From a virus: a stretch of DNA of 32,744 bases. The position numbers were made by a program, and so were the translations under genes. The first letter of the stretch is position 1. Each line of letters begins with the position of its first letter. Below, piece after piece: positions 26,194 through 32,708 of the stretch. The notes under the pieces are model-generated. The model saw only the letters and a program-made list of their open reading frames with translations. It was not told the origin of the DNA and searched no databases. The stretch is taken from positions 1 to 32,744 of the IMG/VR virus record IMGVR_UViG_3300010354_006898; one strand, given 5' to 3'.

Positions 26194-26682
26194 ATGGCTG
26201 AACTGATTAACTCGAATGAGATATTTTTTACCCCCTTCGAGCCAAAACTACAAAATCGCTTTATCATGTACATTGAAGGTGTACCTGCTTGGTTGGTTAA
26301 AGGTGCGGGAAGACCAAACATTAACTTTAATCCAATTAAGTTAGACCATATCAACGTATATCGTAAAGTGAAAGGCAAAGGGGAATGGCAGGATGTTACA
26401 ATTAAACTATATGACCCAGTGGTTCCATCGGGTGCACAGGCAGTCATGGAGTGGGTACGTTTATCACACGAATCTGTAACTGGTCGTGATGGATATTCCG
26501 ATTTTTACAAAAAGGATATTACATTACATACGCTCGGTCCTGTTGGTGATAAGGTAGAAGAATGGACATTAAAAGGTGCATTTATTACCGCAACAACATT
26601 TGGTGAAATGGATTGGGCTAATGATGCATTTGTTGAGATTTCACTCACACTTGCATATGATTATGCTATTCTACAATACTAA
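26194..26682 (+). CDS. Tail tube protein (T4 gp19-like)
   Basis: The 162-residue tube subunit matches gp19 in length (T4: 163). Conserved phrases are EPKLQNRFIMYIEGVPAWLV (about 16-35), KLDHINVYRKVKGKGEW (50-66), WVRLSHESVTGRDGY and a final FGEMDWANDAFVEISLTLAY (137-156). It has a strong GGAG site (26184-26187, 6-base spacer) and forms its own transcription unit between two terminators, fitting a product needed in many copies. Confidence 0.94.
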   Translation: MAELINSNEIFFTPFEPKLQNRFIMYIEGVPAWLVKGAGRPNINFNPIKLDHINVYRKVKGKGEWQDVTIKLYDPVVPSGAQAVMEWVRLSHESVTGRDGYSDFYKKDITLHTLGPVGDKVEEWTLKGAFITATTFGEMDWANDAFVEISLTLAYDYAILQY

Positions 26683-26782: not shown

Positions 26783-27748
26783 ATGTCAAAACAAAAAAGA
26801 ACTATTCTGGTTACAGGTGGTTCCGGTTTTATTGGTAGTAATTTTATTCACATGATTCTTGATAAGCCCAATTCAAATATAAGAATTGTGAATGTTGATG
26901 CACTAACTTACGCCGGAAATCCAAAAAATGTTGAAAAATTTGAAGGTAATGAAAATTACATCTTCTACCATGCAGAAATACAGAACACAAGACTAATAAA
27001 TGACATCTGTAAAATGCATGATGTTGAAGGTATAATAAATTTTGCTGCTGAATCCCATGTGGATAGGTCAATTCTCGATGGAAAACCTTTCATAGACACA
27101 AATATAGTCGGAACCGTGTCACTCTTAACTGTTGCTAAGGATTTAGAACTAAAAAAGTTCGTTCAAGTATCAACAGATGAAGTTTATGGTAGTTTAAAAC
27201 TAGATTCAGTAGAAAGATTTACCGAAGATTCACAAATATTACCTAATTCCCCATATTCAGCTGCTAAAGCGGGTGCAGATGGGTTTGTTAGGTCATATTA
27301 TCATACTTACGGTGTCCCTGCAGTGATTACACGTTGTTCAAACAACTATGGTCCGAGACAACATACTGAAAAATTGATACCTATGATGATAAAAAAGGCG
27401 GTCAAAGGGGAAAGTTTGCCAATATACGGTGACGGATTGAATGTTCGTGACTGGATTCATGTTGATGACCATTGTAGAGCGGTTTGGCTTGCATATGAGA
27501 AGGGAAAAAATGGTGAAGTTTACAATATTGGATCGGATAATGAGTGGGCAAACATTGAATTGGCAAAAAAAATATTATCAATAATGGATAATTGGTCTTC
27601 TAAAATAGAATATGTTGCTGATAGATTAGGACATGATAGAAGATATGCAATAGATTCAAAGAAGGCACACGATGAACTTGGTTGGAAACCACTAATAAAT
27701 TTTGAAGATGGTTTAATATCAACTGTATATTGGTATATTTCCAATTAA
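26783..27748 (+). CDS. dTDP-glucose 4,6-dehydratase-like enzyme (RmlB family)
   Basis: The 321-residue extended short-chain dehydrogenase has the NAD-binding TGGSGFIGSN (11-20), the RmlB signature NFAAESHVDRSI (86-97), the catalytic triad part STDEVYG (T131, D132, E133) and active-site Tyr158/Lys162 in SPYSAAKAG. It also has the substrate-binding NNYGPRQHTEKLIP and a GDGLNVRDWIHVDDH motif. Family members convert dTDP-glucose to dTDP-4-keto-6-deoxyglucose, the first committed step to rhamnose and other deoxysugars. It lies in the tail module between tube and baseplate/chaperone-type genes as a single-gene unit. Other nucleotide-sugar substrates are possible. Companion rmlA, rmlC and rmlD genes are not in the window. 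Confidence 0.88.
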   Translation: MSKQKRTILVTGGSGFIGSNFIHMILDKPNSNIRIVNVDALTYAGNPKNVEKFEGNENYIFYHAEIQNTRLINDICKMHDVEGIINFAAESHVDRSILDGKPFIDTNIVGTVSLLTVAKDLELKKFVQVSTDEVYGSLKLDSVERFTEDSQILPNSPYSAAKAGADGFVRSYYHTYGVPAVITRCSNNYGPRQHTEKLIPMMIKKAVKGESLPIYGDGLNVRDWIHVDDHCRAVWLAYEKGKNGEVYNIGSDNEWANIELAKKILSIMDNWSSKIEYVADRLGHDRRYAIDSKKAHDELGWKPLINFEDGLISTVYWYISN

Positions 27749-27802: not shown

Positions 27803-28675
27803 ATGGCACAATTAGCAAACGGATATAATATTGCAGAGGAACTAAACTCTGAAATGTCAGATGCCGAAATCAAAGAGAGACTGTTATCTCAACACAAACA
27901 AGAAGACGTTAAAAAAAGTAATTTTCCAACAGAAGTTATACCTTTGCCTTCAAAAGGTTTACTTTATCCGGTAGACCATCCACTTGCAGATGGATTTATT
28001 GAAATGAAGTATATGACGGCAAGAGAAGAAGATATTTTGACATCACAAAATCTTATTAAACAAGGTGTAGTTCTAGACAAATTGTTTGAGTCTTTGATTG
28101 TTACTCCAGTCAATTATGGTGATATTTATGCCGGTGACAAAAATGCAATTATGGTCGCCGCTAGAATATTAGGTTATGGTAATGATTATTCAGTTGAAAT
28201 AGAAGATCCTTTTTCGGATGGTGAAAAACAAACAGTAACAATAGATTTATCTCAAATCGAGCACAAGGAGGTCGATTTTAGCTTATTTGAGAACAGAAAA
28301 AATGAATTTGATTTTATTTTACCAAATTCAAAAAGAACGGTAACTTTCCGATTGATGACACACCAAATAGAAAAGGATGTTCAGGCAGAGTTAAAAGCAT
28401 CTAATAAAACATTTATTAAGACCGGTGTTGATAAAGAATTAACAACAAGACTCAAACATATTATTCTTGCAGTAGATGGTGAAAGAGGCCGTGCTGCTAT
28501 AAATCATTTTGTTGATAATGAATTATTTGCTCTTGATTCAAGGGCATTAAGAAAGTATATGCGTGAAATATCTCCAGATTTGGATATGAAATTTACATTT
28601 ATATCCAATGCTACTGGTGAAGTTAAGGAGTTGGACATCCCGATGGATGTCTCCTTTTTTTGGCCTTCCAATTGA
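27803..28675 (+). CDS. T4-type baseplate / tail-assembly protein (PF12322-like, gp26-related)
   Basis: The 290-residue product matches what I recall of the T4 baseplate protein family (PF12322): FPTEVIPLPSKGLLYPVDHP (41-60), IEMKYMTAREEDILTSQNLI (67-86), then an AARILGYGNDYSVEIEDPF region and a C-terminal helical part ending DVSFFWPSN. It sits directly before the tape measure, where tail assembly chaperones are found in other tailed phages. Its last codons include seven T's (28655-28661), and a second gene overlaps in the +1 frame, so a frameshifted longer product is possible. The start has AGGAT upstream. Confidence 0.78.
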   Translation: MAQLANGYNIAEELNSEMSDAEIKERLLSQHKQEDVKKSNFPTEVIPLPSKGLLYPVDHPLADGFIEMKYMTAREEDILTSQNLIKQGVVLDKLFESLIVTPVNYGDIYAGDKNAIMVAARILGYGNDYSVEIEDPFSDGEKQTVTIDLSQIEHKEVDFSLFENRKNEFDFILPNSKRTVTFRLMTHQIEKDVQAELKASNKTFIKTGVDKELTTRLKHIILAVDGERGRAAINHFVDNELFALDSRALRKYMREISPDLDMKFTFISNATGEVKELDIPMDVSFFWPSN

Positions 28676-28877
28676 GTATAGGTTAGGTTTACATCAAGAA
28701 ATATTTTCTATGTGTTATGCCGGTAAAGGAGGATTTCAATTCAATGACATTTACAATATGCCAATTTATTTAAGAAGATATTACTTAAAAATGATGGCAG
28801 ATGCAATTGAAGAAGAACAAAAACAATATGAAAAGGGTTCGGATAAACAGATAAGTAAACCTAACATCAATATTTGA
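28647..28877 (+). CDS. Small overlapping gene, possible tail-assembly partner or frameshift extension
   Basis: An open frame overlaps the end of the preceding gene in the +1 frame. ATG 28647 gives 76 residues (MSPFFGLPIEYRLGLHQEIF...); ATG 28608 would give 89. The only Shine-Dalgarno-like site, AAGGAG at 28625-28630, is 16 bases from ATG 28647, which is poor. The sequence is plainly protein-like: a helical YRLGLHQEIFSMCYAG, then GKGGFQFNDIYNMPIYLRRY, and a charged tail (ADAIEEEQKQYEKG). Similar short proteins occur at this place in T4-like genomes (gp51-like or chaperone-like). It may be translated alone or as a fusion after frameshifting at 28655-28661, giving about 357 residues. Confidence 0.68.
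   Translation: MSPFFGLPIEYRLGLHQEIFSMCYAGKGGFQFNDIYNMPIYLRRYYLKMMADAIEEEQKQYEKGSDKQISKPNINI
28655..28661 (+). other. Seven-T slippery run, candidate +1/-2 frameshift site
   Basis: Zero-frame codons are TCC TTT TTT TGG. A peptidyl tRNA-Phe on the second TTT can re-pair perfectly one base forward (or two back), entering the frame of the overlapping downstream ORF at GGC CTT CCA. The zero frame ends 12 bases later at TGA (28673-28675). Confidence 0.4.
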
Positions 28878-28943: not shown

Positions 28944-31900
28944 ATGGCAAAAAAGCGTTCCGAAGGTTCATCAACCAACATAATACAATTAAAAAAACTT
29001 TTAGCTGATTTAGAAAAAAGCATCCTTGCAACTAAAAAACAAATAGTTGCTGAGGATAAAAAATCTGCAGACTATCTGGAAAAGATGGCCAAGTTAGATG
29101 CAATTCGTTCAAAAAATCGTAATGAATATTATCGTATTAGACGCCAAATAGATCAAATAGAAAAGGAAAGTCAAAAGAGGGCAGAAAAGGAATTAAAAGT
29201 ACGAGAAGATTTAGCTAAACAAATAAAAGACGAAAATAAAGAACTTGATAAAATTGCAAAAAAAGAAGAAGCTAAATTAAAAAGGGCAGCGGAGAGACAA
29301 AAACTTCGTGAAAAAGAACTTTCATTTGAAAGAGAAATAGGTGAATTACAAGAAAAATCTGCAATTTTGATGCGAAGTGTCAATAGTGATATTCAAAAAA
29401 AGGCAGATAAACTTAAAATTTCAGGACAATTTGTTACACAAATAGCAGATAAAACAGATGAAATAAAAAAATTGTTTAAGGGAACGGCGGAAGAAACAAA
29501 GGCATTTGAAAAAACATTAAAATATACAAACGATAATGCATCAAAAATAGATAGATTATCTGGAAAAATTCTCGAAAATATGGAGAATATGAAGAAAAAG
29601 GGGTATCAGTTGATAGATACATATGAAATCGAAAGAGATTTGAAAGAACAATCCGCAAGATTAGATTTAAATGCAAGTAAAATGGGTGCAGAGAGATATA
29701 TGTTTCAAAAGAAAATGATTGATGCTCAATCAAAAGAATTTGAAAAATTGAAGCAAGTAAATCAAAAAATGGCGGAAAAATCAAAACAAGCAAAAGAAAC
29801 AAGAGAAAATATAGTTGGATGGATTGCAGCCGTTCCTCTCGGTGCATTTTTAATGAATAAAATGGGATTGGGAAAAATAATAACTGGAACAAAAACTGTA
29901 AAAGAAACAATAAAGGATTGGGGAACTGCTCTAAAAGGGTTTGCAATGGCTCTACCTTTTATGGCACTGGGTGGTATTTTTTCCTTATTGGTAACGGTAA
30001 TGAAAAAATTAGTTGGTATAGTTATTGAATTGGATCAAGACATTTCGGATTTGAGTAAACAGTTTGCAATAAGCAGAGATAGATCAGAAAAACTGTTTAG
30101 TTCTTTGGGAAAAATGGCATTAAGAATGAGAGTTGTTGGTGTTAATACGAAAGAATTGGCAAAAACTCTTGAAGACTTAACAGAAGAATATGGGACAAAT
30201 TTAGATAGATTAGAGAGAGCATCTATCCGTAATGGTATGTTGCAAAATATATCTTTATTGCGTGAAAAATGGCAACTAACAAATGAACAAGCATTAAACT
30301 TTTACCAAAACTCAAAAATAATGGGTGTTGGTATGGATAAACTTGCACAAGCAAGTATGTTAGTAAATAAAAACGTATTAAATTCAAGAGAAGCATTAAA
30401 GGCGGTAGCAAATGTACCAAAAACAATTGCGATGGGATTCAAGGGAGCAATAAAAGAATTAGCTGCATTTGCAGGTGCGGCAAAAGTAATGGGTATAGAT
30501 TTAAAGACTTTTCACGATGCTATAAAGGCACAGTTAGATATTGAAAGTGGACTCGAAAATCAATTTACAACGGAAGTATTAACTGGCGTTCATATGCAAG
30601 AAATGGATGCATATAGATATGCAATTGATATGAGACAAACCGATAAAGCGTTTGGATTACAGATGCAAATGTATCAAAGAATTATTGATAAATATGGTTC
30701 AAAATTAGAAAAAAATAATTTAACACAGACTGGATTGGATGCTTTTGTAAAACTATTTAATGTTAGCGAAGATGAATTTGTGAGTCAAATAGCAAGATTT
30801 GGCGAATTACAGGATCAATTTGGTAAAGGAAGTTTAAAAGCAATTCAAAAAATGCAGGAATCAAACAAAAAATTAGTAGGGAAGGGTGGCGCAGCCGGAT
30901 TTATACTTGGAGAAACTAAAGCAAAAGAGGGTGCAAGTATAACTGAAAGATTTTCTGATGACATGGAAAAAATGAAAATAGAATTAAAAGATAAACTATT
31001 TCCAGTTATTGATAAATTACATAGTATGTATGATGAACTTATGCCAAAAGTTAGAACTATTGTATCTACTATGGCAGAATCTCTTCCTGGAATAGTAGAA
31101 ACCGTTGTTAAACTACTTGGTATTGCAGAAAAAATAGCTAACGTTGTTTTGGCTTTATTCCAACCAGTATTACAACTAATGGAATGGATGGGTATAATAG
31201 TTGAGAAGGATGAAAAGCAAGCAGACGGTACAACAAAAAAAGTTAAAACTTTAAATGCAGAATGGTTTAATATGTGGAATATTCTTGGCACAATAGGTTT
31301 ATATTTTGGTGCAAAAGGATTATTAACATGGGGTATAAAGAAAACCGGAGAAGCACTTGGTGAAATGTTAAAGAAAGGTTGGACTGGATTCAAAGATTGG
31401 GTGAAGGGATCCAAACAAGCAACAGAAGCGGTTGATGATGTAAAACAATCAATTAGTGGAGACAATACTAAAAAAACTGGAAAGAAAAATTTATCGCGTA
31501 AAGAAAGAAGACAATTAAGAAGAAGTGGAAAAACGGGAAACAATATTGCAAAAGAGGTATTAGAAGAAGTTGACGTTACTAAAACCAAAAAACCTGGAAT
31601 GTTTAGTAGAATGAAAACAAAACTTACGCCAAAACCTGGTGGTGGTATGATGAAAAATTTTGGAAAAAAATTATTGAATCCAAAAAATTTGTTGAAAAAT
31701 GTTTCAAAGGGGGGAATTGTAGGTCTTGTTGGTGGATTGGTTGCCGATGCAACATTAGGTATTGCTAAAGATCAAGCCGAACAAGCGGGTAACTATAAAA
31801 CTGCGGCTGGATTGGATGTTGGATCAAGTGCATTATCTGGTGCTATGTTGGGTGGAACAATAGGAAGTATAGTTCCTGGAGTTGGAACTGCAATTGGAGC

Positions 31901-32708
31901 TGGTATTGGAGGTCTTCTTGGAGCAGGTTATGGGTTATATCAAAATGCAGGAACATTATTTGGTGGAGATAAACAGCAACAACAAAAGCCACAACAGGCA
32001 ATGGCACAACAGGCAGCCAGTATGTCAAGACAATCTGCGGAAGAATTGAAAAAATTAAATGAACAAATGCAACTTCTCGGTGGTGATAGAACATGGCAGG
32101 CATCAAAAGCCGTGAATCAAGTTGCAAAATCAACAACAGCTTTAAGTGATGCATTTAGTTATTTCTATAAATCAGGTGCCCATTTAACATTCAGTTATGT
32201 TGTTAAAACATTTGATTCAGTAAACAATTCAAAGATATATTCTTTTGCTAGTGGTATAACAAGCGTATCAAACAGCATTGGTGATTTAAGTAAAAAACTA
32301 TCAAAGTTAGATGTTGCTAAGTTAGAAAGGGTTTCACAAATAACAAATCCTGGAATAATGTCTACAATTACTGGCGCTGCTGGATCTTTATTTGGTAGTG
32401 TAAAATCATTCTTTGGATTTGGTGGAAGCAGTGCACAGCAAACATCAACCGTTCCATCATCAACAACAACGGTAGGTGCGAACAAAAATGCAGGATCAAA
32501 CGTTTCACAAACATCATCGGGTGTATCAGTTAATGTAAACACGGTTGCATTAGAACAAAAAATAGATAAGTTAATAGGAATTATTGGACAAATGGCATCA
32601 CAACCTACATACATAAAGATAGGAGATAGAACCGTTGAAGCAATAAGTAGCGAAATAGATTTTAAGAAAAATAAAGAAGTAGGACTTCAAAGATATGGTA
32701 GTATCTAA
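28944..32708 (+). CDS. Tape-measure protein
   Basis: The 1254-residue product is the largest gene in the window and follows the tube, sheath and assembly genes. The first 280 or so residues are a charged coiled coil. Hydrophobic segments follow at about 290-312 (IVGWIAAVPLGAFLMNKMG) and 332-362 (GFAMALPFMALGGIFSLLV). A long helical middle runs to about 760. A Gly/Ala-rich hydrophobic stretch at about 925-1010 (SSALSGAMLGGTIGSIVPGV) is typical of tape-measure C-terminal regions. The end contains a helical LEQKIDKLIGIIGQMAS and the phrase IKIGDRTVEAISSEID. Such proteins set tail length and are delivered into the envelope. ATG 28944 (GGTG at 28933-28936, 7-base spacer) is preferred over the in-frame TTG at 28941. 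No peptidoglycan hydrolase motif is seen. Confidence 0.85.
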   Translation: MAKKRSEGSSTNIIQLKKLLADLEKSILATKKQIVAEDKKSADYLEKMAKLDAIRSKNRNEYYRIRRQIDQIEKESQKRAEKELKVREDLAKQIKDENKELDKIAKKEEAKLKRAAERQKLREKELSFEREIGELQEKSAILMRSVNSDIQKKADKLKISGQFVTQIADKTDEIKKLFKGTAEETKAFEKTLKYTNDNASKIDRLSGKILENMENMKKKGYQLIDTYEIERDLKEQSARLDLNASKMGAERYMFQKKMIDAQSKEFEKLKQVNQKMAEKSKQAKETRENIVGWIAAVPLGAFLMNKMGLGKIITGTKTVKETIKDWGTALKGFAMALPFMALGGIFSLLVTVMKKLVGIVIELDQDISDLSKQFAISRDRSEKLFSSLGKMALRMRVVGVNTKELAKTLEDLTEEYGTNLDRLERASIRNGMLQNISLLREKWQLTNEQALNFYQNSKIMGVGMDKLAQASMLVNKNVLNSREALKAVANVPKTIAMGFKGAIKELAAFAGAAKVMGIDLKTFHDAIKAQLDIESGLENQFTTEVLTGVHMQEMDAYRYAIDMRQTDKAFGLQMQMYQRIIDKYGSKLEKNNLTQTGLDAFVKLFNVSEDEFVSQIARFGELQDQFGKGSLKAIQKMQESNKKLVGKGGAAGFILGETKAKEGASITERFSDDMEKMKIELKDKLFPVIDKLHSMYDELMPKVRTIVSTMAESLPGIVETVVKLLGIAEKIANVVLALFQPVLQLMEWMGIIVEKDEKQADGTTKKVKTLNAEWFNMWNILGTIGLYFGAKGLLTWGIKKTGEALGEMLKKGWTGFKDWVKGSKQATEAVDDVKQSISGDNTKKTGKKNLSRKERRQLRRSGKTGNNIAKEVLEEVDVTKTKKPGMFSRMKTKLTPKPGGGMMKNFGKKLLNPKNLLKNVSKGGIVGLVGGLVADATLGIAKDQAEQAGNYKTAAGLDVGSSALSGAMLGGTIGSIVPGVGTAIGAGIGGLLGAGYGLYQNAGTLFGGDKQQQQKPQQAMAQQAASMSRQSAEELKKLNEQMQLLGGDRTWQASKAVNQVAKSTTALSDAFSYFYKSGAHLTFSYVVKTFDSVNNSKIYSFASGITSVSNSIGDLSKKLSKLDVAKLERVSQITNPGIMSTITGAAGSLFGSVKSFFGFGGSSAQQTSTVPSSTTTVGANKNAGSNVSQTSSGVSVNVNTVALEQKIDKLIGIIGQMASQPTYIKIGDRTVEAISSEIDFKKNKEVGLQRYGSI

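Follow-up and report, generated by a model that had tools for sequence, protein, structure and literature searches.

A strongly conserved candidate +1 frameshift site in the tail assembly chaperone gene of a T4-like phage branch

This study examined a 32,744 nucleotide stretch of viral DNA (the window; IMG/VR record IMGVR_UViG_3300010354_006898), and within it a pair of overlapping reading frames lying between a gp19-like tail tube protein gene (26194-26682; phrog_4542, E 1.4e-27) and the gene for a tape measure protein of 1254 aa (28944-32708), the latter recognized by its position and from annotated relatives. These two genes, the overlapping frames and the features of the slip site are on the + strand. 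The first frame, 27803-28675, specifies a protein of 290 aa (TAC-N) and ends in GAT GTC TCC TTT TTT TGG CCT TCC AAT TGA, with seven T's at 28655-28661; the zero-frame stop codon (TGA, 28673-28675) follows the second TTT after four sense codons. A second frame, offset by +1, overlaps this gene, spans the T run and terminates at 28877; it is open from 28590, and the listed ORF begins at 28608. This layout had been reported in a first-pass annotation, and its coordinates (stop at 28675, T's at 28655-28661, +1 ORF to 28877) were confirmed. Joining the two frames at the run, with one base skipped, gives a single protein of 357 aa, as that annotation had also predicted (about 357 residues). The part of the second frame that would be used (TAC-C, 28656-28877) reads FFGLPIEYR... 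and supplies 71 residues past SFF.

The tail tube gene and TAC-N were found on the same short locus in 176 of the 187 relatives with a hit. Between them, the window carries a gene of the GDP-mannose/dTDP-glucose 4,6-dehydratase type (26783-27748; PF16363, E 1.7e-80), which occurs at the same spot in thirteen relatives with 70-100% identity. Four other loci (L149, L168, L036 and L037) have about 1.8-1.95 kb between tube and TAC-N, which suggests that other genes have been inserted where the dehydratase gene sits. Elsewhere among the phage structural genes of the window is one for a protein with seven RCC1 repeats (856-1998; PF00415, E 2.5e-64).

TAC-N is a gp26-type protein. Its match to PF12322 was below the curated cut-off (E 1.6e-4), that to phrog_150 ('baseplate hub') was stronger (E 1.2e-8), and the small +1 ORF on its own gave a weak match to phrog_634 ('baseplate hub assembly catalyst', E 0.025). 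When profiles built from the relatives of the window were compared by hhalign, TAC-N matched T4 gp51 together with cyanophage gp26 (E 4.5e-7) and TAC-C matched the gp51 C-terminus together with cyanophage TAC-C (E 2.2e-6, probability 89%), both E-values being those of pairwise profile-profile comparisons rather than of database searches. On the 282 positions of the phrog_150 profile, T4 gp51 aligned over its full length (3-281) and gp26 only as far as 236, a coverage that fits gp26 as the counterpart of TAC-N and gp51 as that of the joined protein, TAC-NC. A search of PDB sequences with the TAC-N profile gave no meaningful match. TAC-N and TAC-C were modelled separately with AlphaFold2, giving confident models of both, that of TAC-N with a pLDDT of 88.5 and that of TAC-C, with three helices, with a pLDDT of 84. 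The best solved fold match to the TAC-N model was the HK97 tail assembly chaperone (gp13, 2ob9), which ranked first by VIA-align (Z 4.7, 72 residues, rmsd 3.2) and second by Foldseek (E 0.9, prob 0.44); both scores are low, so that the resemblance between model and structure is suggestive but weak. Against predicted viral structures, TAC-N matched proteins named as T4-like baseplate hub assembly proteins with E-values down to about 1e-13, and TAC-C had no structural neighbours of note. Taken together, the homology to gp26 and gp51, seen both with phrog_150 and in the profile-profile matches, supports the view that 27803-28877 encodes a TAC-N/TAC-NC tail assembly chaperone pair, with the chaperone function assigned by analogy, and upholds the earlier suggestion that the PF12322-type protein and its extension are the T4-like counterpart of such chaperones.

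The arrangement was compared across 95 non-redundant loci, 90 of which have TAC-C in the +1 frame and an alignable slip site. TAC-C lay in the +1 frame in 91 of the 95 and in the -1 frame in three; in the remaining one, RM378, it was missed by the profile, yet a +1 ORF is present. The sites of the +1 loci were TTT TTT TGG (66 loci), TTT TTT TAC (17) and TTT TTT TAT (1), with rarer forms TTC TTT TGG (4), TTC TTT TTT (1) and TTT CTT TGG (1), and L003 is an outlier among them with TTT CTA. The run is exactly T7 in 84 of the 90 and is never longer, and four sense codons separate the slip codon from the zero-frame stop in 81. The T run, the overlap and the frame relation are thus all conserved. Recurrence in more than 90 distinct sequences led us to reject sequencing error as the cause of the overlap, and on sequence comparison the overlapping +1 arrangement is confirmed as real, far beyond chance.

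Constraint at the site is uneven in an informative way. All 90 loci have T at the third position of the slip codon, five have TTC as the Phe codon before it, and the codon after it is TGG, TAC, TAT or TTT. An invariant slip-codon T beside a variable preceding Phe codon is the asymmetry predicted by a +1 slip of one tRNA. A set of 36 close, non-redundant relatives has TTT at both Phe positions without exception. Elsewhere in the genes compared, TTC makes up 77 of the 400 Phe codons. Over 630 pairwise comparisons, synonymous identity is 1.0 at both TTT codons, the mean over 229 columns being 0.53, and the codon immediately before the pair varies freely (0.38). Overlap of two coding frames can explain the conserved bases past the run. 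It cannot account for the third position of the slip codon, since translation in the +1 frame begins only with the slip.

The first-pass annotation had proposed a '+1 (or -2)' frameshift, two slips that enter the same frame. A -2 ribosomal slip at the T7 run, of the kind known in phage Mu (PMC5009743), would add one extra Phe (358 aa, junction SFFFGLP), and TTT TTT T does permit re-pairing two bases back. The variant sites separate the two directions. In the four loci with TTC TTT TGG, a -2 slip would need the Phe tRNA to pair with UCU, and in Flavobacterium phage immuto (TTT CTT TGG) the Leu tRNA to pair with UUC, so that no -2 re-pairing is possible in either; both sites allow a +1 slip, from UUU or CUU onto UUU. 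Re-pairing at +1 is feasible in nearly all variants, including those of the Gram-positive phages SP-15 (TTT TTT CAC) and GXN1 (TTC TTT CGT), where UUU would slip to UUC (UUU_C); LIS04 has TTT TTT AGT. Because the TTC TTT TGG and CTT TGG relatives cannot re-pair at -2, that half of the proposal is excluded and we give it scarcely any credence for the window, while the +1 half stands. The overlap, its frame, the slip site, its conservation and the +1 geometry are established by these comparisons.

A homopolymer might also be slippery for RNA polymerase. If transcription of the T7 run dropped one U or added two, the edited mRNA would be translated normally, and loss of a single U would yield the +1 output. 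The arrangement is kept, however, in relatives whose runs are merely 3, 4 or 6 T's long, and the run never exceeds seven, though slippage would increase with length. Nor does the direction vary, whereas families that use polymerase slippage tend to include both directions (PMC3711429). Transcriptional slippage is therefore considered highly unlikely.

TAC-C might, thirdly, be expressed as an independent small gene that has a start of its own, or by ribosomes that re-initiate past the zero-frame stop, and the +1 frame of the window does have in-frame ATGs at -47 and -8 relative to the run. Upstream of the slip, however, 60 of the 90 relatives have no ATG in the +1 frame and 36 have no ATG, GTG or TTG at all, a +1-frame start behind an SD-like motif occurs in only four, and in some the +1 frame is closed by a stop directly before the run. 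Independent initiation fails in those 36 relatives for lack of any +1 start codon, and on this ground was rejected; we regard the chance that it applies to the window as very slight indeed. Poor ribosome sites at the ATGs, which had earlier been brought against a separate start, proved a weak argument, but the disfavour itself is borne out by the relatives that lack a start.

In two relatives the two genes are separated and the run is not conserved. L204 (2729-3050) and L209 (2717-3000), both immuto-like, carry TAC-C in the -1 frame as a separate ORF, begun by an ATG immediately past the TAC-N stop, and their slip sites have decayed to TTC TTG TAT and TTC CTT TGG. On the TAC-N tree they are placed next to immuto, inside the +1 group, so the split looks like a secondary loss of the fusion and serves as a natural control: a separate start coincides with a lost T run. 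L005, a distant jumbo phage, also carries a separate, ATG-started TAC-C ORF at the stop. With L204 and L209 as exceptions, fusion of TAC-N and TAC-C is not universal among the relatives, although in these two the run has degenerated as well.

The best reading of the site, to which we give a probability of about 0.91 from the comparative evidence, is a programmed +1 slip of peptidyl-tRNA-Phe on U7 that makes both TAC-N and a 357-residue TAC-NC. The earlier proposal of a programmed +1 frameshift with tRNA-Phe re-pairing is supported by the conservation of the site, the frame in 91 of 95 loci and the +1 geometry. Most ribosomes would translate 27803-28675 to give TAC-N, and we infer that a minority, at a rate which is likewise inferred, would pause at U7 while UUU in the P site is paired with tRNA-Phe. 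The tRNA would then move one base forward onto the overlapping UUU, and reading would resume at GGC (28662) and continue to 28877, giving a product of 286 TAC-N and 71 TAC-C residues. The junction peptide expected in the window is ...DVSFFGLPIEYR, whereas the zero-frame product would end in ...DVSFFWPSN. By analogy with lambda gpG/gpGT, TAC-N may form a coat around the tape measure, and recruitment of tail tube subunits may fall to the TAC-C domain.

What would make the ribosome pause is not obvious, since the codon after the slip codon, TGG, is not rare in the window (14.9 per 1000 codons). SD-like stimulators showed no positional enrichment at slip sites, and a downstream pseudoknot or hairpin gave no consistent signal (mean z -0.56 over relatives; z 0.02 in the window). 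Upstream of the run is a candidate +1 stimulator, a stem-loop at 28633-28652 with 8 bp (7 Watson-Crick and one G-U) and a 4-nt loop, which ends 2 nt before the T's. Its MFE is -10.8 kcal/mol, with a p of about 0.003 against a synonymous null in which the peptide was fixed and codons were drawn from the gene's own usage. Folds were significant (p<0.05) in 73% of the 15-locus subclade of the window and, across all 90 loci, which are not mutually independent, in 33% compared with 3.3% of 720 control windows; the stem signal was 32-36% at the slip and 2-7% in windows at least 30 nt upstream. In the subclade, the Ile at the stem is encoded by ATC in 14 of 15 loci, compared with 30 of 281 elsewhere. 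Of ten -1 sites examined, one had a significant upstream stem. The stems vary in sequence and register, 31 of the 32 significant ones ending 0-4 nt before the run, and covariation of pairs in the fixed register of the window's stem was not above independence over all relatives. What withstands the synonymous null is a stem tied to its position but free in register.

These patterns make the upstream stem-loop a strong lead as a +1 stimulator. In many members it would refold at the exit side of the ribosome, directly behind the E site, a placement that recalls engineered hairpins beside the E site, which, in RF2-free tests at CUUUGA on 70S ribosomes, stimulated +1 and depressed -1 frameshifting (PMC6321510). 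It is possible, but we advance it tentatively and would not call it probable, that this deep T4-like branch shifts +1 with neither stop codon, rare codon nor Shine-Dalgarno element, by a P-site slip at UUU_Y aided in many members by an exit-side stem-loop.

In a tree of 31 TAC-N proteins, a -1 and a +1 side were separated with support of 100/98. The -1 side comprises the cyanophages, HTVC008M, phiM12, YB07, Aeromonas 65, VAP7/D494, RHph_I1_9 and T4 gp26/gp51, and the +1 side the clade of the window, Mel-JY01, immuto, jumbo phages, RM378 and SP-15/LIS04/GXN1. TAC-C is in the -1 frame on the cyanophage side, in the split loci L204 and L209, and in L193, a long-branched basal member of the +1 side; it is +1 in the window and its branch. 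A single change of direction would suffice on this tree, although the exact placement of the long branches (RM378, T4 gp51 and L193) is unsure. An ATG overlaps or adjoins the TAC-N stop in several of the -1 phages, which may therefore use re-initiation. In four T4-like phages of this kind (L217, L218, L219 and L220) the ATG overlaps the stop as TGATG or TAATG, and there frameshifting and re-initiation may coexist or substitute for each other.

Frameshifted chaperones of T4-like phages are, in general, already known. According to papers that cite their work, Vladimirov, Gautam and Davidson (Virology 2022) identified T4-like TACs, some groups relying on a frameshift and others having split genes (PMC10885494, PMC12846349); some of these phages have separate short and long TAC genes (PMC10885494), and T4-like TAC-N genes carry poly-T -1 signals (PMC12846349). 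The statement in the first-pass annotation that T4-type phages are not classically described as frameshifting here is outdated. A 2016 review considered low-level tail-gene frameshifting to be conserved in long-tailed phages 'except T4', and noted that -1, -2 and +1 shifts are each employed by different phages, with +1 rated as very likely for HSTV-2, a haloarchaeal myovirus (PMC5009743).

The T4-like TACs of cyanophages S-PM2 and P-SSM2, phiM12 and others resemble the window in having homologous TAC-N and TAC-C ahead of the tape measure and, on the cyanophage side, a Phe-Phe poly-U slip site closing TAC-N. They differ in direction, the T4-like groups examined shifting -1 at U_UUU_UUC-type sites and the branch of the window +1 at UUU_U or UUU_C. 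T4 genes 26 and 51 share the phrog_150 match, gp26 as the N part and gp51 at full length, but T4, unlike the window, encodes the short and the long form in two genes of opposite orientation and uses no frameshift. The abstract of Vladimirov et al. 2022 reportedly assigned these two genes. In lambda (gpG/gpGT), P2 (E/E+E') and Mu, too, a single gene ahead of the tape measure yields both chaperone forms, short and long, but lambda and P2 shift -1 and Mu -2, and their likeness to the window is one of arrangement. Influenza A PA-X (UCC_UUU_CGU, +1) involves a one-base forward slip of tRNA-Phe from UUU, as proposed here, and a like argument has been made there for re-pairing of the tRNA from UUU onto UUC; the UUU_CGU of GXN1 (UUC_UUU_CGU) equals that experimentally studied site (PMC3498833). 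PA-X differs in its eukaryotic ribosome, unrelated protein and rare A-site codon trigger, the window having UUU_UGG. At the RF2 gene (prfB), a P-site slip to UUU occurs at CUU_UGA, for which immuto has the counterpart CUU_UGG.

Searches of the accessible literature, which did not extend to Vladimirov et al. 2022, returned no mention of the +1 branch, of a single change of direction or of the upstream stem-loop, and a deep branch that shifts +1 beside a cyanophage/T4 branch that shifts -1 looks new. From sequence comparison, the site appears to be a real and strongly conserved +1 variant of a known system, and it offers a lead towards a stimulator of a new kind. One practical outcome concerns annotation, since in the records of Mel-JY01, immuto, SP-15 and LIS04 the C-terminal part is either missing or entered as a hypothetical protein, truncated or separate. 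If the upstream stem-loop works as proposed, it would be a simple stimulator of +1 shifts on bacterial ribosomes and, at the exit side, would provide a natural example, in phages, of the effect that upstream hairpins have until now shown in engineered reporters. Homologous chaperones that use nearly the same Phe-Phe poly-U site in opposite directions would represent a natural experiment on what sets the direction of a ribosomal slip.
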